Origin: Bacteroidales bacterium
GTDB lineage: Bacteria > Bacteroidota > Bacteroidia > Bacteroidales > P3
Direction: 5' to 3'
Assembly (NCBI GenBank): GCA_017633985.1
Contig: JAGBOF010000010.1
Span: 124,001 to 188,000 of the forward strand
Length of the DNA stretch: 64,000 bases
Shown here: piece by piece, positions 5,846 to 63,869 of the stretch
Numbering within the stretch: the first letter of the stretch is position 1
Layout: each line of letters opens with the position of its first letter
Notes under the pieces: model-generated
What the model saw: the letters and a program-made list of their open reading frames with translations, nothing else
What the model was told of the DNA's origin: nothing
The model's database searches: none
Translations under genes and position numbers: made by a program

Positions 5846-5958
5846 CTGCCGCCCCAAGCCGTATTAATCTGAAAAAAACTGTTTTTTTACCCTAAAAAAA
5901 CCCTTTTTTTGAGTCAAAAAAAGGGTTTTTTCTGAAATATTACGCCACGGGGCGGCAG
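5846..5958. repeat. Type A palindromic A/T-tract element, copy 1
   Basis: Arms CTGCCGCCCC (5846-5855) and GGGGCGGCAG (5949-5958) pair over 10 bp. Between them lie three 16-17 bp palindromes of seven A, a 3-base core and six or seven T, with cores CTG (5879), CCC (5901) and GGG (5923), exactly 22 bp apart. It is in the divergent region 5752-6224, between the porin promoter and the acyl-CoA synthetase promoter. The rest of that region, right of the element, has 21-bp-spaced AT-rich modules without further genes. Confidence 0.9.
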
Positions 5959-6165
5959 TTTTATGCGATAGGGCAAAAATTTTCAACAACAAAGCAAAAA
6001 AATAAACGCTTTTCGGAAAAATATTTAATAATTATAGGTGTTTAAAGCGTATGAATTGTACGGAAAACAGTCATATAGGCGTTATTAATGGTGTATATGG
6101 TATAATAAATTGCAAAAATTTGCGGTTTTTTATGCTTACTGTGTCCGTAATATGTAAAAATGTCG

Positions 6166-6173
6166 TAATTTTG
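6166..6173 (+). promoter_or_regulatory. Acyl-CoA synthetase gene promoter -7 box
   Basis: TAATTTTG fits the consensus and lies about 50 bp before the ATG. Confidence 0.55.
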
Positions 6174-6224
6174 CAAGCCTGTAAAGTTGTTAAGTGCGGT
6201 TATTTCACCGCTAAATAATGAAAA

Positions 6225-7889
6225 ATGGAATATAAAAGCTTTATTGCGGATATAGAACAAAGTATTATTGATCATTGGGGACGGCCTGCCCTGAGCGATT
6301 ACAAATCAGGTCCGATTACATTCTCACAAGTAGGCGAAAGAATAGCACGTCTGCATATTCTTTTCGAACATTGCGGCATCAAAGAAGGTGACCACATCGC
6401 CCTTTGCGGAAGAAACTGTGCCGCTTGGGCTATCTCCTATTTTGCTGTGCTTTCTTACGGAGCCGTTGCAGTGCCTTTGTTGCACGAATTCAAGGCCCAA
6501 CAGGTGGAACACCTGGTCAATCATTCGGATTGCAAGCTTGTGATGCTGGGCGACGTTGTTTGGGAAGGCGTAGATGCGGATAATCTGCCCGACATACATG
6601 CCGTGGTTGTCATGCAGGGATTTCAATTGGTTTATTGCAAAGACGATAAGTACCAACAGGCGTTTGACAATCTTACCAAGCTATTTAAAAAGAAGTATCC
6701 GCAGGGATTTTCTGCCAAAAACGTAAAATACCGCAGGGAAAAGCCCGAAGATTTAGCCCTTATCAACTATACCTCGGGTACGACATCGGCTTCCAAAGGC
6801 GTAATGGTACCTTACAAGGCATTAATGGGCAACCAAATCTTTGCCGACAGGGTGATAACCAATTTGAACGAATACAGTAATTCAATCTGTATGCTGCCTA
6901 TGGCTCACATGTACGGTATGAGTTTCGAATTGATAACCGAATTCCGCCGCGGAACGCATATCCACTTCCTTTCGAGGGTTCCTTCGCCTAAAATAGTAGC
7001 ACAAGCGTTAAGCGAAGTTAAGCCTGATATTATTATCTCCGTACCTTTGATTATAGAGAAGATATACAAAACCAAATTGAAGCCTATACTTGACAAAAGG
7101 TTGACCAAAACTCTTTTACGCACGCCTTATATTGACAAGATGTTGCTTTCCCGTATACAAAAGGAATTACATACGGCTTTCGGGGAGAACTTCTACGAGG
7201 TTATAATAGGCGGTGCGGCAATTAACCAAGAGGTGGAAGCGTTTTTGAAGAAGGTCGGTTTCCGTTATACGATAGGTTACGGAATGACGGAGTGTGCTCC
7301 TATAATTTGTTATGCTGATTGGAAAGATACCAAGCTTTATTCATGCGGAAAGGCGGTCGATGAATTGGAGATAAAGATAGACTCGCCCGATCCGTCAAAC
7401 ATTCCCGGCGAAGTATTGGTTAAGGGCGATAACGTAATGCTCGGCTATTACAAAAACGAAGAAGAAACAGCCAAGGTAATAAAAGACGGTTGGCTGCATA
7501 CGGGAGATTTGGCTGTCATGGATGCTGACGGATATATTTACATAAAGGGCCGTATCAAGAATATGATTCTCTCGGCTAACGGGCAGAATATATACCCTGA
7601 AGAAATAGAAGACAAACTTAATTCCATGGAATACGTCAATGAAGCGTTGGTAATAGAGAAAGAAGGTAAGATAACAGCACTTGTAAATCTTGATTTGGAG
7701 AAATTGGACAGAGATAAGGTGGACAGAAACTCCTATAATGAAATTTTGGAACAAATACGTAAGGATACAAATGCCGAACTTCCCGCTTACGAACAAATTT
7801 CACAGATATTTATTCAGGTGGAAGAATTTGAGAAAACACCTAAACGTTCCATCAAACGTTACATGTACACACACAGAAACAATTCTTAA
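6225..7889 (+). CDS. AMP-forming long-chain acyl-CoA synthetase family protein
   Basis: The 554-aa protein belongs to the adenylate-forming superfamily and would activate a fatty acid or related carboxylate to acyl-AMP and then acyl-CoA. Visible motifs are the P-loop NYTSGTTSASKGV (about residues 180-192), the A5 motif YGMTECAPI, the hinge region with the ATP-ribose aspartate in GWLHTGDLAVMDADGY, KGRIKNMILSANGQNIYPEEIE, and the C-terminal lysine region KTPKRSIKRY. There is no signal peptide. The acyl substrate cannot be deduced. A strong terminator follows directly, so it is probably monocistronic. Confidence 0.9.
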   Translation: MEYKSFIADIEQSIIDHWGRPALSDYKSGPITFSQVGERIARLHILFEHCGIKEGDHIALCGRNCAAWAISYFAVLSYGAVAVPLLHEFKAQQVEHLVNHSDCKLVMLGDVVWEGVDADNLPDIHAVVVMQGFQLVYCKDDKYQQAFDNLTKLFKKKYPQGFSAKNVKYRREKPEDLALINYTSGTTSASKGVMVPYKALMGNQIFADRVITNLNEYSNSICMLPMAHMYGMSFELITEFRRGTHIHFLSRVPSPKIVAQALSEVKPDIIISVPLIIEKIYKTKLKPILDKRLTKTLLRTPYIDKMLLSRIQKELHTAFGENFYEVIIGGAAINQEVEAFLKKVGFRYTIGYGMTECAPIICYADWKDTKLYSCGKAVDELEIKIDSPDPSNIPGEVLVKGDNVMLGYYKNEEETAKVIKDGWLHTGDLAVMDADGYIYIKGRIKNMILSANGQNIYPEEIEDKLNSMEYVNEALVIEKEGKITALVNLDLEKLDRDKVDRNSYNEILEQIRKDTNAELPAYEQISQIFIQVEEFEKTPKRSIKRYMYTHRNNS

Positions 7890-7907
7890 CTTAATATTAT
7901 ATAACAA

Positions 7908-7966
7908 AAAAGAGATTTTTCAATTATCCTACAAACGCATTTATTGAAAAATCTCTTTTGTTTTGG
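7908..7966. terminator. Bidirectional rho-independent terminator
   Basis: AAAAGAGATTTTTCAAT (7908-7924) pairs perfectly with ATTGAAAAATCTCTTTT (7943-7959), a 17-bp stem flanked by A and T runs. It separates the convergent acyl-CoA synthetase and S41 protease genes. Confidence 0.85.
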
Positions 7967-7984
7967 CTTATTATGCCGCCGTGT

Positions 7985-9748: not shown

Positions 9749-9790
9749 AGTTTCTGTTTAAATATATTTCAGTCTATAGATACGTTAAAA

Positions 9791-9885
9791 TAATCAGCCT
9801 TAAAAATTTTTTAAAACGCCACGTCAGTAAATTAAAACGGCGTTTTAATAAAACGAAACGCCTTCTTAATAAAACTATATCATTT
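9791..9885. repeat. Intergenic 21-bp module array (type B)
   Basis: Cores CGCC (9817), CGGC (9838) and CGCC (9859) are exactly 21 bp apart, with weaker modules on either side. This is the one type B array between divergently transcribed genes (S41 protease and lepB). Confidence 0.8.
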
Positions 9886-9933
9886 TAGCCTCATTTTAAG
9901 GGTTATTTTGCATAACAAACGTAAAAATATTTC

Positions 9934-9961
9934 TTTGTATTGTTTTTTTTGTGTAAATTTG
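9934..9961 (+). promoter_or_regulatory. lepB promoter
   Basis: TAAATTTG at 9954-9961 has TTTG at 9934-9937, a spacing of 16 bp; the start codon is at 10000. Confidence 0.6.
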
Positions 9962-9999
9962 CACTTTAATTTGTGAAATTATTTTAATACAGCATTGGA

Positions 10000-12440: not shown

Positions 12441-12468
12441 ACCGGTTTGCTGAACTAAGGCACGAAGA

Positions 12469-14449: not shown

Positions 14450-14540
14450 TAAAAAATTTCAATACGAATGCGTAATTATCTTCCGTAAGATTAAAAAATT
14501 TGTGCCTTAAGCGGTTTTGAAAATGCCTTAAGCCTCTTTG

Positions 14541-14652
14541 CCGCCGCCCCGTGGCGTTTTATTTTCAAAAAAACAGTTTTTTTGACTCAAAAAAAGGGTT
14601 TTTTCAGGGTAAAAAAACTGTTTTTTTCGGATTAATACGGCAAGGGGCGGCA
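14541..14652. repeat. Type A palindromic A/T-tract element, copy 2
   Basis: Arms GCCGCCCC (14543-14550) and GGGGCGGC (14644-14651) flank three A-run/T-run palindromes with cores CAG (14574), GGG (14596) and CTG (14618), 22 bp apart. It lies in the divergent region 14413-14937 between the glycosyltransferase and TerB-DnaJ genes. Confidence 0.9.
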
Positions 14653-14660
14653 GCAAAAGG

Positions 14661-14850
14661 ATTTAAGGCGTAGTTTTTACACAATAAGGCAAAAATATCT
14701 TGCTTATTTATTCCTATATCTTATAATGCTATAAAAATATCTTAACAGTTTATAAAAACATCTTACGATGCTTCAAAAACATTCCGCCTGTTTATAAAAA
14801 TATTTTGCGATGGTGCTTTATTATAATGCAGTGTAAGGGAAATTTTTCAA
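14661..14850. repeat. AT-rich 21-bp module array next to type A copy 2
   Basis: A run of modules with a short core (GGC, then TGC, CAG, TGC, CTG) followed by a TATAAAAATAT-like stretch repeats at about 21 bp, for example GGC at 14667 and 14688 and TGC at 14727 and 14769. It fills most of the space between the type A element and the promoter at 14892. Confidence 0.7.
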
Positions 14851-20710: not shown

Positions 20711-20829
20711 ACGAGAAGTTTTAATAAAGAAAAATCACGCTGACAGTTTTTTAAGCGGGAAATTACGTCAATTTTACAGCATTTTAACAGGCTGTATAAA
20801 CGCCTGTTTTTATTAATGTTACAAACGGT

Positions 20830-20913
20830 CAAAATAAAACGCCGTTTTAATAAATTAATCAGCGATAAAAATTTATTAAAACGGCGTTTTAATTTTTTTT
20901 AACGCCGTCTTTT
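20830..20913. repeat. Intergenic 21-bp module array (type B, 4 modules)
   Basis: Cores are at 20840 (CGCCG), 20861 (AGCG), 20882 (CGGCG) and 20903 (CGCCG), on an exact 21-bp register. The array lies between the convergent acyltransferase and helicase genes, where a bidirectional terminator would be expected. Confidence 0.9.
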
Positions 20914-25007: not shown

Positions 25008-25166
25008 ATACATTTTATTAAAATATAACACCTCTTCACGGTATTAAAACATCATCTTTGACGGACAAAACCGCCTTTACATATGTTATTATGGTATAAA
25101 ACGCCGTGGAATATGTGTAAACCCTCCGCCCTTTTATAAAATATCCGAGCCTTAAGCCTTGTGTCT

Positions 25167-25275
25167 TCCGCCCCGTGGCGTAATAATCTGAAAAAAACTG
25201 TTTTTTTACCCTAAAAAAACCCTTTTTTTGACTCAAAAAAACTGTTTTTTTGAAAATAATACGCCACGGGGCGGA
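25167..25275. repeat. Type A palindromic A/T-tract element, copy 3 (best preserved)
   Basis: The arms TCCGCCCCGTGGCGT (25167-25181) and ACGCCACGGGGCGGA (25261-25275) are a perfect 15-bp inverted repeat. Three A-run/T-run palindromes lie between, with cores CTG (25198), CCC (25220) and CTG (25242), 22 bp apart. It stands in the divergent region 24952-25405 between the helicase and alcohol dehydrogenase genes. Outside the element, GGC/GCC motifs recur at 21 bp on both sides (for example 25128, 25149, 25170). Confidence 0.92.
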
Positions 25276-25336
25276 GAAAATATGCCTCAAGGCATGATTA
25301 AACAACATCAAGGCAGCGTTATTAAGGCGAAAATGG

Positions 25337-26593: not shown

Positions 26594-26838
26594 ATTATGT
26601 AGTATGTGATATGTAGTACGTAGTATGTAATACGTATTATGTGTTATGTAGTATGTGATATGTGTTATGTAATATGTTGTATGTAGTATGTTATATGTGT
26701 TACGTAATATGTTGTATGTAGTACGTAGTAGGTTAGTTTGACGGAATGACATCTTACCTACCACATACTACATAACACATACTACATACTACATATTACA
26801 TATTACATACTACGTACTACATAATACATACTACATAT
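26594..26838. repeat. Heptanucleotide array folding back on itself (type C, copy 1)
   Basis: Twenty degenerate 7-bp units of the form NNTATGT or NNTACGT start at the base after the alcohol dehydrogenase stop and run to about 26733. After a unique spacer of about 25 bp, eleven units of the complementary form (CTACATA-like) run to the stop codon of the facing lipoprotein gene. The array fills the whole convergent intergenic region and could form one long hairpin in DNA or in either transcript. Confidence 0.9.
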
Positions 26839-30668: not shown

Positions 30669-30746
30669 CGGCGTAAAAAAATATTAAAACGCCTGATCAG
30701 TAAAATAAAACGCCTGATTAATTTTTTAAAACGGCGTTTTATTTTT
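30669..30746. repeat. Intergenic 21-bp module array (type B, 4 modules)
   Basis: Cores lie at 30669 (CGGCG), 30690 (CGCCT), 30711 (CGCCT) and 30732 (CGGCG), exactly 21 bp apart. The first core directly follows the regulator stop codon. The array lies between convergent genes. Confidence 0.9.
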
Positions 30747-30797
30747 GCCTTAAGTCATGTTGATGCAAAAAAATGTAAATATACCTATTTTTGAGTA

Positions 30798-33802: not shown

Positions 33803-33818
33803 GAGGTAATTAACCGAA

Positions 33819-33926
33819 ACAAAACGCCGTTTTGCAATAATAAGACGGCGTTTTGTTTGACTAATCACGCACAATAATTTATTTTTATCGCTGATTAGTA
33901 AATTTATCTGCGTGATTAATTTTTTG
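33819..33926. repeat. Intergenic 21-bp module array (type B, 5 modules)
   Basis: Cores are at 33825 (CGCCG), 33846 (CGGCG), near 33867 (CACGC), 33889 (CGCTG) and about 33910 (CTGCG), on a 21-22 bp register. The array mixes the CGGCG and CTGCG module vocabularies in one place. It lies between kamA and kamB. Confidence 0.85.
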
Positions 33927-36406: not shown

Positions 36407-36490
36407 AATAATCTGCGTGATTATTTTATTAATCTGCGACAATAATTTATTAATCTGCGTGATTATTTCAACCAAATGCGTGATTAAAAT
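36407..36490. repeat. Intergenic 21-bp module array (type B, 4 modules)
   Basis: CTGCG-type cores at 36413, 36434, 36455 and 36476 are exactly 21 bp apart; the array starts right after the kamC stop codon and ends about 30 bp before hsdM. Confidence 0.9.
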
Positions 36491-36522
36491 ATATAAATAA
36501 CAAAAAAACAAGATAAAATACA

Positions 36523-38358
36523 ATGATAAATATACGCAAACTTGAAAACGATTTATGGAGTGCGGCAGATGATTTAAGGGCTAACAGCAATATCTCATCC
36601 AATGAATATTGTATGCCTGTATTGGGGCTAATCTTTTTACGCTATGCTTACTCCCGTTTCAAATTAGTGGAAAAGGAAATAATGAAAGACCGACCTACAA
36701 GAAACGGAATTCCTTTGCCTGTGCAGAAATCGGACTTTATTGCCAAGAGTGCTATATTTCTTCCCTTGGAATCGCAATATAAATATCTTATTGAACAACC
36801 CGAAGATTCTTATTTGCCTGAAAAAGTCAATAATGCCATGAATCTTATTGAAGAAAACGCACCGGATTTACAGGGAATACTGCCTAAAAACTACAATATA
36901 TTCAATTACTCCGTTCTTTCTTCACTTTTGCGTACTTTTAACAATAATGATATAGACAATGTGGAAGGTGATGTCATCGGAAGGATATACGAGTATTTCC
37001 TTAACAAATTTGCAAAAAATATTGCACAGGATGACGGTGTATTTTTCACTCCTAAGTCTTTGGTTAAGATGATTGTCAATATTATTGAGCCTAAACGTGG
37101 AATTCTTTTAGACCCTGCATGCGGCAGCGGGGGAATGTTCGTTCAGACGGGGGACTTTGTTTCGCAGGACGGGACAACTAACGCCAACCGTTCTATGACT
37201 TTCTACGGTCAAGAGAAAATAGAATACAACGCAAAGTTATGTCAGATGAATCTTGCCGTACATGGTTTAAGCGGAAAGATACAATCAGGAGAGGATGCCA
37301 ATACTTTTTACAATGATGCCCACAATCTCGTCGGTTGTTGCGATTATGTGATGGCTAATCCTCCTTTTAATGTTGATAAAGTCAAAAAAGAGTTATGCGA
37401 GAGTGCAGGACGTCTGCCTTTTGGCTTACCCGGTTACAACGACAAGTCAAAAGAATTTTCCAACGGCAATTATCTGTGGATTTCTTACTTCTATGCCTAC
37501 CTTAATGAGAAAGGAAAAGCAGGCTTTGTTATGGCTTCTTCCGCTACGGACTCTGCTAACAAAGACAAACTTATAAGAAAAAACCTTATAAACACGGGAC
37601 ACGTTGATGTTATGATTTCCGTAGGCAACAATTTCTTTTATACCAAATCCCTTCCTTGTACTCTATGGTTTTTTAATAAGGATAAAAGCAACGAAGAGTT
37701 AAATACCGTTCTGTTTATTGATTCCCGCAACTATTACACCGTTATTGACCGCAACCTTAACGAATGGTCGCCCAACCAATTGAAGAATCTCAACGCTATC
37801 GTGTGGCTTTACCGCAAACAAACGCAAAAATACCTTGACCTTATTGCCGATTACGAAAACAAGATAACATCTCTTGCCCAAATATTCTCACTTGATTTTA
37901 ACAAAGAGGATATTTCCGCTTTTCTTTCCGGTGTTAAGGAAAAGAAATCCTTACTTAATGAAGAGTTTAAGCAATTGGAAAAAGATTATAAGGCAACAAG
38001 GAAGAAAGAACCTAAACAAAAATTGCAGGAATCGTTAAATGCAAAAACCGAGGAGTTAAACAAAATTAATGCTTTGCTACAAGAAATTGATGATATGCAA
38101 TGGCTCAAAGACAAATTCCCTGATAATGCTTACCATGATATACTTGGTTTGTGTAAAGCGGCAACATTGCAGGAGATTGAGCAGAAAGATTATTCTCTTA
38201 CGCCCGGTGCATACGTAGGAGTTGCAAAACAAGAAACAGATAACGAAAATTTCTTTGACAGAATGCAACAGATACAGACTGAACTTACTCTTTTGCAAGA
38301 GGAAAACACAAAACTGTTCAATCAAATCACTGAAAATTTTTCATCTTTTAAGCTTTAA
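36523..38358 (+). CDS. hsdM: Type I restriction-modification methyltransferase subunit
   Basis: The 611-aa N6-adenine methyltransferase subunit would, with HsdS, methylate the recognition site and, with HsdR, form the restriction complex. The N-terminal helical HsdM_N domain (RKLENDLWSAADDLR, VLGLIFLRYAYSRF) is followed by the SAM-binding motif DPACGSGG (D197-G204) and the catalytic NPPF (N279-F282). A C-terminal coiled-coil region (~470-540, Lys/Glu-rich) is longer than in E. coli HsdM. hsdS follows after 28 bp. No clear promoter was found; transcription may come from the kamABC side or from within the type B array region. Confidence 0.95.
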   Translation: MINIRKLENDLWSAADDLRANSNISSNEYCMPVLGLIFLRYAYSRFKLVEKEIMKDRPTRNGIPLPVQKSDFIAKSAIFLPLESQYKYLIEQPEDSYLPEKVNNAMNLIEENAPDLQGILPKNYNIFNYSVLSSLLRTFNNNDIDNVEGDVIGRIYEYFLNKFAKNIAQDDGVFFTPKSLVKMIVNIIEPKRGILLDPACGSGGMFVQTGDFVSQDGTTNANRSMTFYGQEKIEYNAKLCQMNLAVHGLSGKIQSGEDANTFYNDAHNLVGCCDYVMANPPFNVDKVKKELCESAGRLPFGLPGYNDKSKEFSNGNYLWISYFYAYLNEKGKAGFVMASSATDSANKDKLIRKNLINTGHVDVMISVGNNFFYTKSLPCTLWFFNKDKSNEELNTVLFIDSRNYYTVIDRNLNEWSPNQLKNLNAIVWLYRKQTQKYLDLIADYENKITSLAQIFSLDFNKEDISAFLSGVKEKKSLLNEEFKQLEKDYKATRKKEPKQKLQESLNAKTEELNKINALLQEIDDMQWLKDKFPDNAYHDILGLCKAATLQEIEQKDYSLTPGAYVGVAKQETDNENFFDRMQQIQTELTLLQEENTKLFNQITENFSSFKL

Positions 38359-38386
38359 AGAAACTATATCATACTCTTACTGCAAT

Positions 38387-39493
38387 ATGAAGCAAATTAC
38401 AATTAATGATTTGGGAAAAGTAATAACAGGACACACTCCTCCTACCAATGAAACAAAATATTACGGAGATTATATGCCGTTTATAAAGCCTACTGATATT
38501 TCTAAACTAACAAGATACACATATAAACCTGAACAATATTATTCTGAAGAAGCCGCAAAGAAATATGCAAACAGTCTTATTCCAAAAGGTTCAACTTTAG
38601 TGGTATGTATCGGAACTATCGGGGAGAAAATAACGCAGGCTCACACAAATCTATTTACCAATCAATCTATAAACTCAATTATACCTAATGATAATTTTGA
38701 CAAAGACTATGTTTATTATCTGCTTAAGTATAATTTAGGTAACCTTAAGGCACTTAACAAAGGTACTGCCTCAGGCAGAGAATTTGTGTCTAAATCTGCT
38801 TTTCTTAATATGGCTCTTAATGTACATGAAAACCTTTCCACGCAGAAGCGGATTGCGGAGATATTGTCGGGATATGATGATTTGATTGAAAACAATCTTA
38901 AACAAATATCTCTTTTAGAAGAATCCGCCGCCCGCCTTTACAAACATTTCTTTTCTTCTCCGAAAAAAGATAACGGAAAAGGAGAAATTATTAAACTAAA
39001 AGATATTTGCCCTATCATAACAGGGAAAAAGGATGCAAACTATGCAGACAACAATGGAAAATATCCCTTCTTTACTTGTTCGCAACAGCCATTAAGATGC
39101 AACAATTATTCTTTTGATGCCTCTGCTGTATTACTTGCTGGCAACGGAGACTTAAATGTTAAACTTTACAGGGGAAAATTTGAGGCTTATCAACGAACTT
39201 ATGTACTTATTCCTAATAAAGAAGAGTATTTATTTGCATTATATCATACTCTTATTGAATGTCTGAATGAATTAAAGGCAAAAGCAAACGGTTCTACAAT
39301 TAAATTTATAACTCTTTCTATACTTCAAAATATTGAAATCAAAATTCCGTCAAAAGAAATTCTTAATAAATTCAATGAAATAAGGTTTCCTATACAACAA
39401 AAATTAGAAACATTACACAAAAGCATTGAGTTGTACCGAGAAAGCCGTGATTTATTGTTGCCAAAACTGATGTCAGGCGAGCTACAAGTGTAA
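38387..39493 (+). CDS. hsdS: Type I restriction-modification specificity subunit
   Basis: The 368-aa HsdS has two target-recognition domains. TRD1 (about residues 1-150) starts MKQITINDLGKVITGHTPP, and TRD2 (about 195-340) starts IIKLKDICPIITGKKDANYAD. Two conserved helical spacers are similar to each other (LSTQKRIAEILSGYDDLIENNLKQI, and the C-terminal helices ending LLLPKLMSGEL). TRDs set the split recognition sequence, which cannot be read from the protein by eye. The ATG at 38387 is preferred because it begins the conserved TRD1; a longer frame from 38222 overlaps hsdM by 137 bases and adds unlike sequence. Confidence 0.93.
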   Translation: MKQITINDLGKVITGHTPPTNETKYYGDYMPFIKPTDISKLTRYTYKPEQYYSEEAAKKYANSLIPKGSTLVVCIGTIGEKITQAHTNLFTNQSINSIIPNDNFDKDYVYYLLKYNLGNLKALNKGTASGREFVSKSAFLNMALNVHENLSTQKRIAEILSGYDDLIENNLKQISLLEESAARLYKHFFSSPKKDNGKGEIIKLKDICPIITGKKDANYADNNGKYPFFTCSQQPLRCNNYSFDASAVLLAGNGDLNVKLYRGKFEAYQRTYVLIPNKEEYLFALYHTLIECLNELKAKANGSTIKFITLSILQNIEIKIPSKEILNKFNEIRFPIQQKLETLHKSIELYRESRDLLLPKLMSGELQV

Positions 39494-39497
39494 TAAA

Positions 39498-39612
39498 TTT
39501 TGCCACTTGCGGTAATAATATAGAAAACACCCCCTTTTTTGAGCAAAAATACCCGGTATTTTGACTAAAAATACCCCCCTTTTTTCGCTACTCTTTCCGC
39601 AAGTGGCAAAAA
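39498..39612. repeat. Type A element, copy 6 (different arms, same architecture)
   Basis: The arms TTTTGCCACTTGCGG (39498-39512) and CCGCAAGTGGCAAAA (39598-39612) are a perfect 15-bp inverted repeat unrelated in sequence to the arms of copies 1-5. Inside, three C-rich cores centred near 39532, 39554 and 39576 are again 22 bp apart and flanked by A and T runs. It lies between hsdS and the small ORF, just before the promoter at 39737; this is the only copy not between divergent genes. Confidence 0.85.
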
Positions 39613-39736
39613 CAACATTGTTTTTGGCAAAATTAATAACAAAAAAGGCGGTAAAATAACGGCACAAAATTTTATTGGGAAATGATTAAATTGCTGTTTT
39701 TGAATAAATGATAATAACAATATCAAATAAAAACCG

Positions 39737-39744
39737 TATCTTTG
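39737..39744 (+). promoter_or_regulatory. Promoter -7 box before the small ORF and hsdR
   Basis: TATCTTTG fits the consensus, 30 bp before the small ORF. It means hsdR can be transcribed separately from hsdMS. Confidence 0.65.
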
Positions 39745-39773
39745 CACATTGAAACAAAATAAAAAGAAAAACT

Positions 39774-39971
39774 ATGACAGGGACAGCGGAAATAACTGAT
39801 TGGTATATGCGTTTTCTAAACCCATTGAGCGACGAGGTTAAAATAGAAATAATGAAACGTCTGTTAGATTCATTAGCGGAAAGCATAAAAGCAAGAAACA
39901 ATTCAGAAAATAAAGACATTGCCCTACCGGATTTCAAAGGCGGATGGGAATATATAAAAAGGGAGAAATAA
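39774..39971 (+). CDS. Small antitoxin-like protein inside the restriction locus
   Basis: The 65-aa protein (MTGTAEITDWYMRFLNPL at the start, FKGGWEYIKREK at the end) resembles the small Bacteroidota proteins that precede PIN or RelE-type toxins. The resemblance is in length, the amphipathic helix LSDEVKIEIMKRLLDSL and the Gly-Trp-Glu tail. No toxin gene follows; hsdR starts 13 bp after its stop. It has a promoter of its own that must also serve hsdR. It may be an orphan antitoxin or a control protein for the restriction subunit; both are inference. Confidence 0.6.
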   Translation: MTGTAEITDWYMRFLNPLSDEVKIEIMKRLLDSLAESIKARNNSENKDIALPDFKGGWEYIKREK

Positions 39972-39984
39972 AAATCATATAACG

Positions 39985-42900
39985 ATGGGGAAAGATTACA
40001 GCGAAAATATTTTAGTGCAGGAAAGCACGGGCAAAGTTTTGGAAGAAAAACTCGGTTGGAAAGTTATTTTTGCTTATAATCAAGAAATACTCGGCGAAAA
40101 CGGAACTTTGGGCAGAAAAGATTACAGCGAAGTTCTGTTATTGCGTCATTTGAAACAGGCACTTTTGAGAATCAATCCTTGGATAGATGACAAGGCGGTA
40201 AAGAAAATAGAAGAAACTCTCTTATCATTGCCTTCTACCCTGTCGCTTATGCAAATCAACGAAACAATTTACGGATATATCAAAGACGGAATTGATATTG
40301 AATATTTTAACCCTGCAACTAACCGCAATGAAATAAGAAAAGCATTTGTTATTGATTGGAACGATATCAACAATAACGAATTTTTGGCTGTCAAAGAAAT
40401 GAAAATTCACGGCAAGATATACAATTGCCGTACTGATATTGTAGGTTTTGTCAATGGTATTCCTTTGTTGTTTATGGAATTCAAACGTCAGGATGTTGAT
40501 GTTGCCTACGCATACGATAACAACTACAAACATTATCACTATGCCATACCACAGTTGTTTTATTACAACGCTTTTATGATTTTAAGCAACGGTTTGGATG
40601 CACGAATCGGGACATTGGAAAGCAAATATGAGTTTTTCCATCAATGGAAACGCTTAAAAGAAGACGAAGAAGGCAAAGTGGATTTGGAAACTATGCTTTT
40701 GGGAGTTTGTAATAAAGAAACGTTTTTGGATTTGTTGGAAAACTTTATTTTATTTGACAAATCCTCAGGAAAAACTAACAAGATACTTGCCCGCAATCAC
40801 CAATATTTAGGAGTAAATGAGGCTTTGCAGGCGTATAAAGAAAGAAAACTGTTGGAAGGTAAGTTAGGAGTTTTTTGGCATACGCAAGGAAGCGGAAAAA
40901 GTTACTCAATGGTTTTTCTTTGTTCAAAAATCAAAAGAAAATGTAGCGGTTCGCCTACATTTATTTTGCTCACTGACAGAGAGGAATTAAACAAACAAAT
41001 ATCTTCTACGTTTGTTAATTGCTCTTTATTGCCGCAAACAAAAACGGAAGACTGTATTCCGAAAAATGCAGAGCAACTTTACAGTCTTATTCCTAAAAAT
41101 CCGTCTTTTGTTTTCACGCTTATACAAAAATTTAACAGAGAAAATGTTACTCCTTTGCATACTGAGTTTGACATTGTCGTTATTTCGGACGAAGCACACC
41201 GCTCGCAATACGGTAACTTTGCGAATAATCTTAATAAATTCTTACCTGATGCTTCCAAGATAGGATTTACAGGTACTCCGTTGATGAATGACGATGAAAT
41301 AACTAAACGAACATTCGGCAAGTACGTATCTGTCTATGATTTTAAGCGTGCTGTGGAAGATAATGCCACAGTTCCTTTGTATTATGAGAACAGAAGCGAG
41401 AAGTTAAAGCAATTAAACAATCCGCAAATCACACAAGATATTTTAAATGCGATAGATAATGCCGATTTAGACCCTAATCAACAGGAGAAATTGGAGAAAC
41501 AATTTGCCAAAGAAATACATCTTTTGCGTGCAGAGCCGAGATTGAATATTATTGCCAAGGATTTTGTCAGCCATTACTCACAACATTACGGTGAAGGCAA
41601 GGCTATGATGGTTTGTTTGGACAAAGTTTCCTGCGTTATGATGTATAACAAAGTCCAAAAGTATTGGCAGGAAGAGATTTCCTTACTTGAAAAACAGATT
41701 AAGCAAAATACGTCCGACCAATTGCAAAACGAACTCAACGCAAGGTTGCAATGGATGAAAGAAACCGAAATGTGTGTTGTCGTTTCCCAACAACAAAATG
41801 AAGAAGAAACATTTAAAAAATGGAATCTCAATATTGAGCCTCACCGTGTGAAGATGAACAACCGTGAATTGGACAAAGAATTTAAAGACAAGCAAAATCC
41901 TTTCCGTGTTGTGTTTGTTTGTGCTATGTGGCTCACGGGTTTTGACGTCAAATGCTTATCTTATCTTTATTTGGACAAACCTTTGAAAGCCCATACCTTA
42001 ATGCAGACTATTGCAAGGGCTAACCGTGTGGATGAAAACAAATCAAACGGACTTATTATTGATTATATAGGTATTGTTAAGCAATTACAACAGGCTTTGG
42101 CTACATTTACCGTAGGCAAAAACACAACGGAGGGCAGCAGTCCGACACAAGACAAAAGCGTTTTGATTCAAAGATTGTTTGACACTTTGCAAAAAACCGA
42201 AGATTTCTTAAAAGAGTGCGGTTTTGAGTTACAAAAACTAATCAACAGCACGGATTTTGAAAAACTTATGTTATTACAGGATTGTTGCAACGCCGTTTGT
42301 AAAGACATTAAGACAAGAAAAACTTTTGTTACATACGCTCAAGATATTATAAAGATATTCAAATTTATTGATTATTCAGATGTTGATACCAATTGCTTAC
42401 AAAAACGCGATGCAATCTGTGCTGTGTATAAGCAATTGATGAAAAAACGCCGTAAAGCCGACAATACGGATTTGATGGTGCAGATTCACGGTATTATAAG
42501 CGAATACCTACAAACGGAAGAGCAGAAAAACACCACTCAACACATTATTGATATAAGTAAGATTGATTTTGATTTACTCAAAAGGGAATTTTCAAAACGC
42601 AAACACAAGAATCTTATCTTTAAAGATTTGAAAGAAATTATTATACAAAGACTTGAACAATTGCTTGATAAGAATAATTCCGACAAAAGAACGGATTATT
42701 ATCTCCGTTACCAAGATATTATTGAGCAATACAATCTTGCACAAGACAAGGCGGAGATTGAGCGCTGTTTTGCCTTACTTATGACACTTGCAGACGAACT
42801 TGACAAAGAGCAACAGCGTTATATACGCGAGGGATTCACCAATGAAGAGGAACTTGCTATATATGATTTGCTTTTTAAGGAAGATCTTTCCAAAGAAGAC

Positions 42901-43134
42901 ATAAAAAAGATAAAGCAATTTGCACCAGAATTGCTTTACAGGATAAAAAGCGAAATCAAAAAGTTAGATAATTGGACAGATAAGACAGAAACGCGGACTA
43001 TTGTCTATAATGTAATCCGCGATGATATGTATAAAAATCTTCCTGACAGTTACGGAAATCCTCTTATTGATTTTGACAATTACTGCAATAATATTTACAG
43101 ATATGCTTACGAACATTACAAGCATATAGCATAA
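39985..43134 (+). CDS. hsdR: Type I restriction endonuclease subunit
   Basis: The 1049-aa motor-nuclease subunit translocates and cuts unmodified DNA. The N-terminal PD-(D/E)xK nuclease shows D151 and E165-F-K167 (MEFKRQDVDVAYAY). The SF2 translocase has Walker A QGSGKS (K305), the DEAH box D402-H405 (ISDEAHRSQYG), motif III FTGTPL and motif VI QTIARANRVDE. The C-terminal helical region from ~720 binds the HsdM2S core. All key residues are present, so an active enzyme is likely. It is 13 bp downstream of the small ORF. Confidence 0.95.
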   Translation: MGKDYSENILVQESTGKVLEEKLGWKVIFAYNQEILGENGTLGRKDYSEVLLLRHLKQALLRINPWIDDKAVKKIEETLLSLPSTLSLMQINETIYGYIKDGIDIEYFNPATNRNEIRKAFVIDWNDINNNEFLAVKEMKIHGKIYNCRTDIVGFVNGIPLLFMEFKRQDVDVAYAYDNNYKHYHYAIPQLFYYNAFMILSNGLDARIGTLESKYEFFHQWKRLKEDEEGKVDLETMLLGVCNKETFLDLLENFILFDKSSGKTNKILARNHQYLGVNEALQAYKERKLLEGKLGVFWHTQGSGKSYSMVFLCSKIKRKCSGSPTFILLTDREELNKQISSTFVNCSLLPQTKTEDCIPKNAEQLYSLIPKNPSFVFTLIQKFNRENVTPLHTEFDIVVISDEAHRSQYGNFANNLNKFLPDASKIGFTGTPLMNDDEITKRTFGKYVSVYDFKRAVEDNATVPLYYENRSEKLKQLNNPQITQDILNAIDNADLDPNQQEKLEKQFAKEIHLLRAEPRLNIIAKDFVSHYSQHYGEGKAMMVCLDKVSCVMMYNKVQKYWQEEISLLEKQIKQNTSDQLQNELNARLQWMKETEMCVVVSQQQNEEETFKKWNLNIEPHRVKMNNRELDKEFKDKQNPFRVVFVCAMWLTGFDVKCLSYLYLDKPLKAHTLMQTIARANRVDENKSNGLIIDYIGIVKQLQQALATFTVGKNTTEGSSPTQDKSVLIQRLFDTLQKTEDFLKECGFELQKLINSTDFEKLMLLQDCCNAVCKDIKTRKTFVTYAQDIIKIFKFIDYSDVDTNCLQKRDAICAVYKQLMKKRRKADNTDLMVQIHGIISEYLQTEEQKNTTQHIIDISKIDFDLLKREFSKRKHKNLIFKDLKEIIIQRLEQLLDKNNSDKRTDYYLRYQDIIEQYNLAQDKAEIERCFALLMTLADELDKEQQRYIREGFTNEEELAIYDLLFKEDLSKEDIKKIKQFAPELLYRIKSEIKKLDNWTDKTETRTIVYNVIRDDMYKNLPDSYGNPLIDFDNYCNNIYRYAYEHYKHIA

Positions 43135-47063: not shown

Positions 47064-47087
47064 TAACAACATACAAAAGCATGAAAA

Positions 47088-47170
47088 AAGACGGCGTTAA
47101 AATTTTTTAATACGGCGTTTCAGTAAAATAAAACGCCGTATTAATTTCTTAAAACGCCGTCTTTTTTCAG
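47088..47170. repeat. Intergenic 21-bp module array (type B, mirror-symmetric)
   Basis: Cores CGGCG at 47092 and 47113 and CGCCG at 47134 and 47155 are exactly 21 bp apart. The first two modules are the inverse of the last two, so the whole array is one palindrome. Confidence 0.9.
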
Positions 47171-50845: not shown

Positions 50846-50885
50846 AATACCTCTTTGAAAATTAGCTTATTACACATAGCAAAAA

Positions 50886-50970
50886 TAAGACGCCGTTTTA
50901 AAAATTTAAAACAGCGTTTTATTTTACTGAAACGGCGTTTTAAGAAAATAAAACGCCGTCAAAAATTCCG
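50886..50970. repeat. Intergenic 21-bp module array (type B, 4 modules)
   Basis: Cores are at 50891 (CGCCG), 50912 (CAGCG), 50933 (CGGCG) and 50954 (CGCCG), exactly 21 bp apart. The array separates the convergent transporter and glyS genes. Because 21 bp is seven codons, one frame through it reads as a Lys/Arg/Phe heptad peptide; I do not call it a gene. Confidence 0.9.
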
Positions 50971-52510: not shown

Positions 52511-52679
52511 ATTATATTATGTATTATGTTTTATGTAGTACGTTTTTATGTAATATGTAGTATGTTTTATGTTGTATGTAGTACTTTTTATGTTTTACAT
52601 AGTACGCTTTATGTAGTACGTAGTACGTAACTCTACATACTACATACTACGTACTACATAATACATACTACATAAAAAT
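52511..52679. repeat. Heptanucleotide array folding back on itself (type C, copy 2)
   Basis: Degenerate 7-bp units of the form NNTATGT, AGTACGT or TTTATGT run from the base after the glyS start codon to about 52632. Five or six units of the complementary CTACATA form follow, up to the rho stop codon. As in copy 1, the array is the entire intergenic region and can fold into a long hairpin, here inside a possible rho-glyS transcript. Confidence 0.88.
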
Positions 52680-54636: not shown

Positions 54637-54737
54637 CAACTTTATTTCCAATTGCGGACAAAAAACTATAAAAAATTTATTTATTTTTACATAAAACCAC
54701 CGCCCTGCGTATTTTCATTGCCGCTTTATTGCATGTC

Positions 54738-54849
54738 TGCGCCGCCCCGTGGCGTTTTATTTTCAAAAAAAGGGTTTTTTCGGGTCAAAAAAACTGTTTT
54801 TTTGAGGTAAAAAAAGGGTTTTTTCTGAATTAATACGGCACGGGGCTGC
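54738..54849. repeat. Type A palindromic A/T-tract element, copy 4
   Basis: Left arm GCCGCCCCGTGGCGT and right arm ACGGCACGGGGCTGC pair imperfectly. The cores GGG (54772), CTG (54794) and GGG (54816) are 22 bp apart inside A-run/T-run palindromes. It lies in the 833-bp divergent region between rho and the PAP2 gene. To its right, up to about 54930, AT-rich modules at 21 bp continue. Confidence 0.9.
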
Positions 54850-55049
54850 AAAAACATGCTTTAGGGCGTGATATTATCGCATACGGGCGGATATTTTGCG
54901 CAATTTCATCACGGTAATATACTATATTATATATATATAGGTATACGTTTTAACTTCGCAAAACATATTCCTGTCAAAGCAAAAGGCTGCATAAAGGCGC
55001 AGGGTTGAAGTTTTACGGGATTTATCCGCAACTAATAAAAATCTTTTTG

Positions 55050-55336: not shown

Positions 55337-55339
55337 AAA

Positions 55340-56050: not shown

Positions 56051-56095
56051 AAAGAAATTGCCGTGAACATGCGGCAAAAAGGCGTCTTATATTTT

Positions 56096-56464: not shown

Positions 56465-56491
56465 TTTTCAAGATATTTTATTATCACGTTG

Positions 56492-56499
56492 CAAAATTA
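56492..56499 (-). promoter_or_regulatory. MmcQ/YjbR gene promoter -7 box
   Basis: The plus strand reads CAAAATTA, giving TAATTTTG about 28 bp before the start codon. Confidence 0.6.
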
Positions 56500-56514
56500 C
56501 GGCAATTTCACAAA

Positions 56515-56640
56515 ACACAACGTTATCACGCAGAATTAAAACGGTGTTTGGCTGAATTAAAACAGCGCTTGGGTAAAATAAAACGTTGTTTTATTTTATT
56601 GAAACGGCGCTTTATTTTTCAGCGGCAATATTTTATTTTT
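56515..56640. repeat. Intergenic 21-bp module array (type B, 5-6 modules)
   Basis: Cores begin at 56521 (CGTT), 56542 (CGGTG), 56563 (CAGCG), 56584 (CGTTG) and 56605 (CGGCG), exactly 21 bp apart, with more divergent cores than other arrays. It lies between the MmcQ promoter and the 3' end of the XRE gene. Confidence 0.88.
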
Positions 56641-56703
56641 TCCGCATGCAAAACCGCTGCGGTAATTCAACTTTTGCGTCTGTAATTTCATTAAAATAAA
56701 TCC

Positions 56704-57201: not shown

Positions 57202-57742
57202 AATATTTTTACAATTATATATTTAAACTTAATTTTATTTACATTTGTATAATACATATTAGGTATAATCCCCTAAATACATTATTTTACATTTCTATAT
57301 TACCGATACGTTATTTTATAATTAATGTTTCAATTTATATAACATTTATTAAATATTTTATATTAGGTAGTTATATTATCAATCTCACATTTTTATTCAT
57401 TTTTATATAAAATCCTTATTTTTTAATATAGCATCAGTTTAATTAAATAATTTAATTATCTGATTTAATTATGTTTATATTGAATACTAACTATGCATAA
57501 ATTTAAAAATATTCTCATTTAATTACTTTAAATCATATTTAACTGTATTTTTACAAAAATAAATATAATTTATTGTATTTACTTTCGTTTACAAATGTTA
57601 ATATATAAAATTATTTTACTTTTGTAAATAAATAAAACTTCCTTTAATTTGCTGCAATTTGTAGATTTGGTAAATTTTTCGTAATTTTGCAAATTATTAA
57701 ATTATAGTTTTGTCACAGAAATAAAAAACACATATATCTTAA
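57202..57742. promoter_or_regulatory. AT-rich divergent regulatory region between the XRE and kamD genes
   Basis: This 541-bp stretch has the lowest GC content in the window and no ORF. It holds ACATTTGTA at 57241-57249 near the XRE start and its exact inverse TACAAATGT at 57590-57598 on the kamD side, a short TTAGG/CCTAA inverted repeat (57259-57276), and the kamD promoter. Unlike most divergent regions here it has no type A element. Confidence 0.5.
57658..57689 (+). promoter_or_regulatory. kamDE promoter
   Basis: TAATTTTG at 57682-57689 with TTTG at 57658-57661, a spacing of 20 bp, close to ideal. Confidence 0.7.
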
Positions 57743-60108: not shown

Positions 60109-60132
60109 TCTTTTATTTCAATATATTACTGA

Positions 60133-60177
60133 ATAAAGAGAGAAATATATCATATTATTTTCTCTCTTTATTTTTTT
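60133..60177 (+). terminator. Rho-independent terminator of kamDE
   Basis: AAAGAGAGAAA (60135-60145) pairs with TTTCTCTCTTT (within 60158-60169), followed by ATTTTTTT. Confidence 0.85.
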
Positions 60178-60307
60178 ATCTTTTCTTCAGTTTTAAATCT
60201 TTAAGGAAATTGTATGCCGTTGTTACCAAATTGAATAAATATTCGCGGTCATCAATTTCTTCTATATAATGCGAAGGTTTTGCTCTTTCGCAAGTCGGTA
60301 ACTCTGT
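60176..60307 (-). pseudogene. 43-codon coding-like tail in frame with uvrB
   Basis: Right after the tandem stops TAATAA of uvrB (60308-60313), the same frame stays open for 43 codons. It encodes ELPTCERAKPSHYIEEIDD, then REYLFNLVTTAYNFLKDLKL and a basic end, with a stop at 60176. It has no ATG. The composition looks like a real protein C-terminus, so this may be the remnant of a deleted gene or a conditional readthrough extension of UvrB. It is not recognised. Confidence 0.4.
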
Positions 60308-60310
60308 TTA

Positions 60311-62314: not shown

Positions 62315-62334
62315 ACTTTATTATTTTGAAGGGG

Positions 62335-62342
62335 CAAAAGTA
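62335..62342 (-). promoter_or_regulatory. uvrB promoter -7 box
   Basis: The plus strand reads CAAAAGTA, giving TACTTTTG about 20 bp before the start codon. Confidence 0.5.
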
Positions 62343-62442
62343 TAAAAAATTCCGCTAATATCGCTAAAGATACCTGCGGAATTAACAAATAACGTTTGCT
62401 TTTATCCTCTCAAACGCACTGCTTATTAAATTATATGAACAC

Positions 62443-63477
62443 TTATCCTTTTTTGTCCGTAAAAATATCAGATCCCTGGGATACCTTCTGTTGTCCCTGT
62501 ATTATTATCTCATCCTGCACCGACAAACCGTCAGTAACCTGAACGCCTTTGGCAACATTCATTCCCAACCTCACGTATTGCTTTTGCGCTTTGCCTTGTA
62601 CGGCTTTCCAAACAAACGGTTTATTGTCCCAATCCATCTGAACGACATCGCAAGGCAGTATGATAACGTCCTGCGGAGCGTTTCCAACTAAATAAACATC
62701 GCAAAGCATACCGGGAAGCAATGATTTGTCAGAATTATTGACTGTTATTTTCACTTCATAGGTGCGTGAAAATCTGTCGGCATTGATTCCTTTTTCCGCA
62801 ATTCTGCCGTTAAAAATCCTATCTCCCAATGCCGCTGCTTTTATCTTCACGTTTTGACCCACCTTTACGCTGCTTATCTCTTCTTCGGGCAAAGATATTT
62901 TTACTTTAACGTTATCTATTTTCACCAACTTCAATATCGGGGCATTAGGTGCAAGATTCTCACCTTTTTGAACGTATTTCTTTGCAATATAACCCGAAAA
63001 CGGCGCATACATTTTCGCATCTTTAAGCGTTTTCATGGATATTTGTTCGCTTGAAACGGCTTGTTGCAGTTTGCTTGTCACTTCCTGCCACTGTATCTCC
63101 GCTAAAGAACCGCTGTCTTTCAACGTTTTAAGACGGTTATATGCATCTTCAGCCTGATCTTTCATCGCCTGACTGGCCTGATGCAGGTTCCTGAAATTTT
63201 CTTCATCCACTTGAGCCAAAAGTTGTCCCTGACCAACGAACTGCCCCTCCGTTACATTTATTCTGTCAAGCTTACCGCCTGAAAAGAAACTCAAAATAAC
63301 GCCTTGGTCCTCCTCCACAACACCGTTATATGAGTTTTGGGCGGAATAATTCAGCATTTCAACTTTTTGAGTCTCCACTTTAACCTTTTGGTCAGTCGTT
63401 TTATTCTCTTGTTTATGCGAACAACCGATGCAAAGCATTGCAACAGCGGAAGCAATAATTATCTTGTTTATTTTCAT
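62443..63477 (-). CDS. RND-type efflux periplasmic adaptor lipoprotein
   Basis: The 344-aa membrane fusion protein has a lipoprotein signal (lipobox CIGC at residues 16-19). A first barrel-sandwich half (VEEDQGVILSFFSGGKLDRINVTEGQFVGQGQLLAQVDEENF) leads to a helical hairpin (residues ~95-150). The second lipoyl half is KMYAPFSGYIAKKYVQKGENLAPNAPIL, then the beta-barrel and membrane-proximal domains follow. Such adaptors join an inner-membrane RND pump to a TolC-like channel. No pump or channel gene adjoins it: uvrB follows downstream and a divergent gene lies upstream. It may serve a pump encoded elsewhere. Confidence 0.88.
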   Translation of the reverse strand: MKINKIIIASAVAMLCIGCSHKQENKTTDQKVKVETQKVEMLNYSAQNSYNGVVEEDQGVILSFFSGGKLDRINVTEGQFVGQGQLLAQVDEENFRNLHQASQAMKDQAEDAYNRLKTLKDSGSLAEIQWQEVTSKLQQAVSSEQISMKTLKDAKMYAPFSGYIAKKYVQKGENLAPNAPILKLVKIDNVKVKISLPEEEISSVKVGQNVKIKAAALGDRIFNGRIAEKGINADRFSRTYEVKITVNNSDKSLLPGMLCDVYLVGNAPQDVIILPCDVVQMDWDNKPFVWKAVQGKAQKQYVRLGMNVAKGVQVTDGLSVQDEIIIQGQQKVSQGSDIFTDKKG

Positions 63478-63644
63478 TGTGATAAAATTTTATTATTTCT
63501 AAATGATGTGCAAATTTCCTTATTTTCCGCAACAACAAGGTGTTCAAATTTTCCTCAAAATTATGATAAAACCGTTATCCTTTGCCCAATAACTACAATA
63601 CGACCACTAAAAAAGCAATTAGGAATAAGTAATTTTTCTGTTAT

Positions 63645-63760
63645 ATGGCAAAAAACGCTTGTCCTATAACAAAAAACTTATGTCCTATAATAAAAAATCT
63701 CTGCCTTATAGTAAAAAAACTATGCCCTATGACAAAAAACCTATGCCCTATGACGAATGA
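63645..63760. repeat. 21-bp tandem modules left of type A copy 5
   Basis: About five modules with a core TGTCCTATAAC or TGCCCTATGAC followed by A runs repeat at 21 bp between about 63649 and 63760. One frame through them reads as a Cys-Pro-Lys heptad peptide; I do not regard it as a gene. With copy 5 they fill the intergenic stretch 63478-63950. Confidence 0.8.
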
Positions 63761-63764
63761 TTTT

Positions 63765-63869
63765 TGCCCCTTGCCGTCTTATTCTGAAAAAAAGGGTTTT
63801 TTCTTATCAAAAAAAGGGTTTTTTCGGGGTAAAAAAACCCTTTTTTTAAGATTAAAATGCGACGGGGCA
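63765..63869. repeat. Type A palindromic A/T-tract element, copy 5
   Basis: The arms TGCCCC (63765-63770) and GGGGCA (63864-63869) are short and partly decayed. The cores GGG (63794), GGG (63816) and CCC (63838) are exactly 22 bp apart within A-run/T-run palindromes. It lies between the divergent efflux adaptor gene and the partial gene at 63951. Confidence 0.88.

Follow-up and report, generated by a model that had tools for sequence, protein, structure and literature searches.

Intergenic DNA of this Bacteroidales bacterium carries real repeats with near-exact helical phasing. The repeats form symmetric arrays with a unit every 21-22 bp, and the units are dyads in the class built from A-tracts and in part of the other classes; the arrays lie beside unrelated genes, some are retained at orthologous sites, and their letters change between species. 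There is an even chance that they are arrays of operator-like sites, in which rows of dyads of approximately 17 bp would be recognized by a dimeric protein.

The preliminary description had listed six palindromic copies, each with three A/T-tract cores between inverted-repeat arms, in the window (the whole 64,000-nucleotide stretch that was analysed). All six were present in the window at the coordinates given, and the original observation was largely right, although confirmed only in part: the core spacing of 22 bp claimed for all twelve distances was exact in ten (five of the six copies) but not in the copy at 39498, where the distances were 23 and 21.5 bp and the units are imperfect palindromes. 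Copy 1 occupies 5808..5996 (ends set as the centre ±94), with arms, outer 21-bp units and cores centred at 5880, 5902 and 5924; no strand is assigned to this or any other array given here. Copies 2 (14503..14691; cores 14575, 14597, 14619), 3 (25127..25315; cores 25199, 25221, 25243), 5 (54701..54889, upstream of rho; cores 54773, 54795, 54817) and 6 (63723..63911; cores 63795, 63817, 63839) follow, and a further 4.9 units of 21 bp extend copy 6 on its left (63649..63751). The divergent variant, which has GCCACTTGCGG arms (39498..39612), separates hsdS from hsdR in a type I restriction system; copies resembling it are found at C7:68609 and C16:11244, together with a 45-base piece that opens contig C5.

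The whole element proved longer than first described. Across 25 copies (50 sides), units ending in GGC flanked the arms left and right at +21 and +42 bp, which makes the element a symmetric array some 190 bp long with about nine units. Conservation of the GGC ended after the third unit, and no terminal motif was seen farther out in the 25 copies. Each unit of the A-tract class comprises a dyad of approximately 17 bp followed by approximately 5 bp, and neighbouring dyads of this class therefore lie two helical turns apart on the same face of the DNA. The central period (22 bp) and the outer period (21 bp) are 1 bp apart.

A pattern scan of the whole of genome G000 returned 165 forward matches and none for the reversed control; most listed copies were matched in two registers, and the genome is therefore estimated to hold about 80 strict copies. 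In contigs C6 and C9 (448 kb), 25 core triplets were observed, and ten first-order Markov simulations each yielded none, which together with the scan excludes chance. The stricter pattern gave control matches in four genomes (seven in G013, one each in G008, G024 and G062), and a relaxed pattern, which matched the control in many genomes (129 control versus 429 real matches in G013 and 25 versus 301 in G000), was excluded from the counts. Loss of the 22-bp spacing among genome-wide copies had been named as evidence that would speak against the element; in 59 G000 copies located in retrieved genome stretches, 103 of 116 measured core distances were 22.0 bp, with 8 of 21.5, 4 of 22.5 and 1 of 24 bp. 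The central A-tract units within a single copy often differed in core letters. Regular placement along the chromosome was rejected, as the coefficients of variation (CV 0.93 for 14 copies on C6 and 1.02 for 11 copies on C9) were about those of random placement.

The A-tract element is one class of something wider. On C6 and C9, 21-bp arrays of other letters, part of them dyad-symmetric, occurred in 47 of 134 other gaps. Across 157 G000 gaps that lack the element, the best lag was 21 in 174 and 42 in 54 of 1774 sequence windows, and the shuffled control for those gaps gave 8 windows at lags 20-24. Dyads were significant in 13 of 29 G000 arrays without A6 and T6 runs (p<0.05, column permutation; mean z 1.65) and in 56 of 114 arrays drawn from 16 genomes (mean z 1.88). 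In some relatives the dyads were faint or missing, with a mean z of 0.14 in G001 and 0.22 in G005 (5 arrays each).

Within the window, 21-bp arrays were located for the CTGCGTGATTAGTAAATTAAT (3356..3460), ACGGCGTTTTAAT (9782..9886), CGCCTGATTAA (30669..30773) and ATTAAAACGGTGTTTGGCTGA (56513..56617) classes, along with an array of TAATCTGCGTGATTATTTTAT (36407..36511), one of AAAACGCCGTTTTAA units (50855..50959) and one (ATATCTTAAAATGCTATAAAA) that adjoins copy 2 (14695..14799). At 20807..20911 a CAGCGAT unit is flanked by CGCCGT units (lag 21, 0.49); CGCCGT units are joined by CTGCGTGATTAA at 33818..33922, and the four units at 47064..47168 form an overall near-palindrome, AAGACGGCGT...ACGCCGTCTT. 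An array in AT-rich sequence (57376-57480) was excluded from this list of parts, and two heptad arrays were set apart from it.

Several related species kept the spacing with different palindrome letters. In the genus sample, a lag of 21 or 22 ranked first or second in 7 of 9 genomes, versus an occurrence in 1 of 45 gaps sampled from other families. Two sister species (G008 and G013) kept some A-tract copies at orthologous gaps, with arms and cores changed. When each gap was counted once, the element was present at the orthologous G000 gap for 5 of 13 G008 gaps with it versus 3 of 75 without (one-sided p 0.0014), and for 6 of 12 versus 3 of 52 G013 gaps (p 0.0008); gene-level counts, in which a gap can enter more than once (8 gene pairs for 5 elements and 9 for 7), agreed. 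When the two gaps compared each measured 100 bp or more, the figures were 5/13 versus 0/19 in G008 (p 0.006) and 6/11 versus 2/10 in G013 (p 0.12; 0.04 for orthologues of at least 40% identity). Retention is partial: the gene-to-array distance was kept within 1 bp in only 4 of 17 gene pairs, neither G008 nor G013 had an A-tract counterpart of copy 5 at rho, and the sharing of arrays of any class between orthologous promoters was not above chance (G008, 15/32 versus 13 expected; G013, 8/16 versus 8). The letters are not always a species' own, as the CGGCGTTTT class of G000 also occurs in G004 and an ACCGTC class is common to G008 and G013.

Strictly divergent placement had been suggested by the window and was contradicted by the wider set, in which 28 copies were co-directional, 22 divergent and 5 convergent in placement (55 copies; 4 of the 59 were not classed). 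Among long gaps, the element occurred more often in the divergent kind (present in 22, absent from 21) than in the convergent kind (present in 5, absent from 25). Boxes of the TAnnTTTG (-7) type located 84-335 bp from the centres of 55 copies were directed outward in 69 cases versus inward in 20, which suggests that the copies lie upstream of promoters; complete TTTG/TAnnTTTG promoters were few. The neighbours include rho, queA, hydF, adenine deaminase and an Fe-ADH. A regulon was considered and rejected: 20 neighbour proteins were scanned, 4 had no family match and the remainder were functionally unrelated.

Keyword searches of the open-access literature (subscription journals lie mostly outside this coverage) found no element with this plan, and no description of phased dyad arrays either. 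Copy 1 had no match in plasmid and phage collections, and the three-unit pattern had none in viral contigs. REP/BIME elements, which usually exceed 100 copies in a genome and offer binding sites to several proteins (PMC2817692), share with the present element a high copy number and many extragenic palindromic units, regularly spaced. Here, however, the units stand at two helical turns and the letters differ between sister species at some orthologous sites. A link to transposases had also been named as grounds for doubt, and the part of it that concerns RAYT was followed: Y1_Tnp (PF01797) was found in 0 of 14 genus genomes, several of them incomplete, by a search that works, being positive in 16 of 41 genomes overall and in 5 of 14 named controls. 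The BrickBuilt MITE of Porphyromonas gingivalis is likewise intergenic and from Bacteroidales, with a 23-nt repeat unit and reported outward promoters (PMC4596501). BrickBuilt is a spacer-free direct tandem repeat set between a leader and a tail that carry TIR such as GAGACCTTTGCA; the present array is symmetric instead, GAGACCTTTGCA-type ends were not seen in the 25 copies read, and the element therefore does not follow that plan.

An origin as extragenic repeats (BIME-, REPIN- or MITE-like) that are or once were mobile, spread in trans by an enzyme and then partly inherited, would suit the approximately 80 similar, symmetric, intergenic copies, the contig breaks that fall inside copies as they do with repeats (C23, C30, C5), the several letter classes carried by one genome and the absence of a copy from part of the orthologous gaps; the stop in GGC conservation could then mark an end. 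We regard this origin as unlikely: Y1_Tnp was not found, no terminal motif was seen beyond the third unit, and some orthologous copies hold their place while arms and cores change. Minisatellites with little or no function, produced by slippage and template switching and owing their period to the mutational mechanism, might explain a difference of 24 bp (close to one 23-bp unit) between G066 and G084 within one array, the near-identity of tandem units in G024, and the variation of letters among loci and species. Slippage alone, however, does not account for a period of 21 or 22 bp across the genus that occurs in 1 of 45 gaps sampled from other families, cores often differ within one copy, and positions are retained at orthologous gaps; we regard this explanation as quite unlikely.

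Two further explanations concern the physical properties of the DNA or RNA. The intrinsic curvature predicted in the preliminary description was supported for the A-tract class by simple vector modelling (18 degrees for each A-tract, 10.5 bp per turn): the modelled bend of 57 of the 59 copies averaged 98 degrees versus 44 when phase-randomised, and genomic 125-bp windows averaged 30 degrees with a 99th percentile of 94. Curved segments could serve to position a superhelix apex or gyrase wrap in the space between genes, but this has little chance of being the explanation, as the outer GGC units are conserved in sequence and 29 of 48 strong G000 arrays lack an A6 run together with a T6 run, so that curvature is unlikely to be what unites the arrays. 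Cruciform extrusion, also raised initially, is physically possible: DNA folding of the six copies beat shuffles (z -3.65 to -10.66; the sixth copy was equalled by 1 of 200 shuffles), but arms and cores hardly covary within a copy. Left-right arm likeness within versus between copies was 0.823 versus 0.796 in G000 (p 0.017; 56 of 59 copies), 0.707 versus 0.715 in G008 (21 of 21) and 0.670 versus 0.666 in G013 (24 of 26), and complementarity of cores 1 and 3 within copies was in no case significant (p 0.15-0.19). Base pairing, whether in a cruciform or an RNA hairpin, is therefore probably not what is conserved; such scant covariation is what a shared recognition motif would produce. A role as transcription terminators or RNA hairpins, which the strong self-folding of the six copies as DNA and the 5 of 55 copies in convergent gaps might indicate, has only a very slight chance: arms hardly covary, divergent long gaps hold the element more often than convergent ones, the -7 boxes are directed outward, and the window had no Rfam match at gathering scores.

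Recognition by protein was considered in the light of known binding arrays. A5-N4-T5 at 21-22 bp adjoins Rep3 genes in Hymenobacter, Chryseobacterium, Sphingobacterium, Riemerella and others among the matches listed, and 6 of 10 proteins beside such iterons, again among the matches listed, were positive for Rep3. These plasmid iterons share the motif and period with the present element, but are near-identical direct repeats at one origin, whereas the array here is symmetric. A Rep3 initiator as the binder was rejected: Rep3_N (PF01051) was not found in G000, G008 or G013, and the 2 positives among 41 genomes were G030 and G004, a genus member with one Rep3_N. In lambda-type tripartite operators, three 17-bp dyads stand in a row with a centre spacing of 23-24 bp and are bound cooperatively by dimers. 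The rows of three dyads of approximately 17 bp seen here may be analogous, although they are dispersed over many loci, unlike lambda operators. Mycobacteriophage stoperators are many dispersed sites for one DNA-binding protein, and the title of one account names an asymmetric DNA sequence (PMC9283540); the units here are instead dyads in phased rows.

In the operator-like reading, a dimeric DNA-binding protein, or a few paralogues, would occupy three to nine adjacent units cooperatively, forming a nucleoprotein segment in intergenic DNA that would be bent where the units are A-tracts. Protein-protein contacts would fix the spacing and the recognition domain alone would fix the letters; as a consequence, spacing would persist while letters drift between species. 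The complex may serve chromosome-wide architecture or insulation and not the regulation of one pathway. We infer the protein binding, its dimeric and cooperative nature, the co-evolution and the role of the complex; no candidate for the binding protein was found in the analysis. Counted for the operator-like reading are the near-exact phasing, the dyads inside the repeat, the scant covariation within copies, the retention at orthologous gaps and the outward boxes. Counted against it are the 1-bp difference between outer and central periods, the partial retention, the letters that some species share, the weak dyads of some relatives, the scarcity of complete promoters, and the several letter classes in one genome, which would need several proteins or a lax one.

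Tentatively, the arrays might constitute a 'sequence-dialect chromatin' of one Bacteroidales lineage: hundreds of intergenic platforms set by helical phase, with a dyad at each 21-22 bp step. Their letters would be replaced from species to species, sometimes with a class switch at a single orthologous site, and a co-evolving, fast-evolving DNA-binding protein system would preserve the phase and often the position. If so, bacteria would have an intergenic element whose identity lies in geometry more than in letters, and ordinary sequence-based repeat searches would therefore detect only its loudest class. It would also provide a natural series for following, from species to species, how DNA-binding specificity and sites change together under a constant architecture, and a handle on chromosome organisation or insulation in poorly studied Bacteroidales.

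All six copies of the A-tract array, three A-core-T palindromes between inverted-repeat arms, are present where the preliminary description placed them. The 22-bp core spacing that it gave as invariable is exact in ten of the twelve distances; the copy at 39498-39612, with distances of 23 and 21.5 bp, is a distinct variant, of which the genome holds two similar copies and one fragment. This variant lies between hsdS (38222-39493) and hsdR (39985-43134) in a run of type I restriction genes spanning 38222-43134. The spacing is kept beyond the window, being 22.0 bp in 103 of the 116 distances measured among 59 copies placed within stretches of the genome. Genome-wide, a strict three-unit pattern gave 165 matches per strand, most copies being matched in two registers, whereas the reversed control gave 0; in 448 kb, 25 triplets were observed against none in ten Markov simulations. 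In two sister species, core distances were 22.0 bp in 39/43 cases in G008 (the other four being apparent misread units or 21.0 bp) and, in G013 with its cores of 3-5 bases, 21-23 bp in 55/57, 19 distances being exactly 22.0 bp.

With its outer units included, the A-tract element forms a symmetric array of some nine units spanning roughly 190 bp. When 25 copies (50 sides) were anchored on the arm, its GGC end recurred to the left and to the right, +21 and +42 bp further out. In all three units the two final letters carry nearly 2 bits, falling at the fourth, and conservation of the remaining letters fades unit by unit outward. The distance from the centre to the start of the arm is 39 or 40 bases in 47/50 arms, and in the flank of copy 6 (63765-63869) the outer units continue for 4.9 periods.

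This element is one class among many intergenic arrays. In 1774 windows from 157 element-free gaps of the genome, the best self-similarity offset (lag) was 21 bp in 174 and 42 bp in 54 (self-similarity at least 0.46). After mononucleotide shuffling 85 windows passed irrespective of lag, of which 8 fell at lags 20-24, as did 37 of 11050 coding windows. These autocorrelation thresholds were chosen by us, the gene calls are crude and the assemblies are MAGs. On contigs C6 and C9, 47 of 134 element-free gaps (120-1500 bp) qualified at a threshold of 0.48: 32/87 co-directional, 6/23 convergent and 9/24 divergent. Visual reading gave TTAAAACGCCGTTTTAA and AATCTGCGTGATTAGTAAATT as typical non-A-tract units, and column permutation detected within-unit dyad symmetry in 13/29 arrays of this genome without A6+T6. 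The window holds ten other-class arrays beyond the six copies, one AT-rich and two heptad arrays being excluded. The heptad arrays form another symmetric intergenic class, in which 7-bp units (TATGTAG...) switch halfway to the reverse complement (CTACATA...); they lie at 26594-26838 and 52511-52679, and near 53425-53507 on C9 and 251013-251106 on C6. Three heptads make 21 bp.

Copy 1 (5846-5958) as query found matches in 8/41 genomes, and the strict pattern is present in 9/120, this genome counted. Both sister species have many copies, sometimes of four units, whose arms differ from those here, as do their cores (GAG/CTC; TAGG, TCAGA, GCAGG); one RGIG8857 contig is identical in letters to the C6:258877 copy across the stretch displayed. 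Relatives were surveyed for lag in one or two sampled stretches each, over gaps of 120-1500 bp with or without the element, at a threshold of 0.48. The best lag was 20-24 in 65/220 gaps of seven genomes of the genus (this one, G001, G004, G005, G007, G010 and G012), with 0/10 in G010 and 1/13 in G012, and 8-19 or 25-41 in 38/220. Eleven genomes of other genera in the same family gave 9/70 at lags 20-24, one of them a C-rich stretch (G017), and nine more at other lags; 14 genomes of other families, two without a usable gap, gave 1/45, an AT-rich match, and nine at other lags. G008 (28/64) and G013 (19/44) were counted separately because their stretches were picked around elements. Lag 21 or 22 ranks first or second in 7/9 genus members. 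Unit letters vary, from TAGTTACTGAAACTAATAAAA in G005 and AAACAAAGAGATAGAAATCTA in G007 to AAATAACCGTTACTTATTTTG in G073, of another genus; G004 carries AATTAAAACGGCGTTTTAATT, the class of this genome, and an ACCGTC class, located ahead of a gene with 88% identity, is common to G008 and G013. A tandem repeat with a 43-bp period, roughly twice 21.5 bp, occurs at about 3495-3645 of the G022 contig.

Of the stretches compared for retention, those of G008 and G013, and 26 of those from this genome, had been picked around elements. The orthologous gap here holds an A-tract element for 5/13 G008 element gaps versus 3/75 element-free ones (one-sided p 0.0014), and for 6/12 versus 3/52 with G013 (p 0.0008), each gap counted once. 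When neither gap was shorter than 100 bp, the figures were 5/13 versus 0/19 (p 0.006) for G008 and 6/11 versus 2/10 (p 0.12) for G013, the latter becoming 6/10 versus 1/9 (p 0.04) for orthologues of at least 40% identity. Gene-level counts gave 8/14/6/51 (p 0.011) for G008 and 9/7/3/33 (p 0.0004) for G013, with some gaps entering twice. The gene-to-array distance is kept within 1 bp in 4/17 gene pairs (120/120, 157/156 twice, 55/55) and shifts by as much as 237 bp (182/419) in the rest; one of the 17 pairs has merely 31% identity. Arrays of any class showed no joint excess over the margins at orthologous promoters (G008 15/32 versus 13 expected, G013 8/16 versus 8), and retention is therefore shown for the A-tract class only. 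Orthologous promoters can also differ in class: ahead of one gene with 83% identity, for instance, the array is of the CGGCGTTTT class here and of the AAAACCTATGTTTTT class in G008.

Upstream of the AMP-binding gene beside copy 1, compared in 14 of 20 genomes searched, A-tract arrays occur in G008 and G013, a TTAGTGTTTAACACTAA array in G005, a 21-bp array in G012 and 23-bp arrays in G048, G066 and G084; nothing above shuffles was found there in G001, G004, G006, G007, G010, G016 or G073, and in G001 and G073 an array lies at the opposite side of the gene. The adjoining gene differs among some of these genomes. Among 11 orthologues of rho, which follows copy 5 (54738-54849), a clear 22-bp array, of a different class, is present in G008, and the others, including G013, show little above shuffles (G073 0.52 versus 0.45). 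Between the near relatives G066 and G084, one array differs in length by roughly one unit (24 bp).

By simple ORF calls, 55 copies with both neighbours are flanked by 28 co-directional, 22 divergent and 5 convergent pairs, as against 77, 21 and 25 for element-free gaps of at least 200 bp, the element's own length adding to gap size. The Bacteroidota -7 motif, TAnnTTTG, points outward in 69 and inward in 20 cases at 84-335 bp from the centre; two-box promoters near copies are few. Of 20 neighbouring proteins scanned, four lack a family match and the others are mixed, including rho, queA and hydF. Elsewhere in the window, a minus-strand ORF (78-1544) with a 108-bp tandem repeat (36 codons) at 372-1457 probably encodes a repeat protein.

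Were arm pairing important, arms should match better within copies than across them. The within-copy excess was 0.027 (p 0.017) in this genome, and neither G008 nor G013 showed any; five copies (3/59, 0/21 and 2/26, respectively) were omitted for poor template match or a stretch end. Core 1 complemented core 3 in 12/58, 12/20 and 3/26 triplets, where re-paired cores gave 9.2, 10.3 and 1.4 (p 0.15-0.19). Copies self-fold strongly, as any pair of inverted motifs does, and one protein-read motif common to the arms would explain both this and the weak arm covariation.

The A5-N4-T5 iterons of 21-22 bp beside Rep3 genes in unrelated bacteria (L032, L034, L036, L056, L057 and L074 among the matches listed) resemble the element in unit design, but are arranged as direct repeats. 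Direct repeats resembling AAAAATAGTTTTTTGAACTCC also occur in two Dysgonamonadaceae contigs, L048 and L054; in L054, one neighbouring protein is of the FG-GAP repeat type and is no plasmid initiator. The lambda operators, the textbook row of dimer-bound dyads, share with the A-tract arrays a row of dyads suited to dimers. The curvature anticipated for the A-tract class is supported by a simple model (18 degrees per tract, 10.5 bp per turn), which predicts a bend of 98 degrees. A row of dimers along one DNA face would require 17-bp dyads every two turns. We consider the chance that the A-tract element is a protein-bound array to be about even; such an array might serve architecture or insulation.
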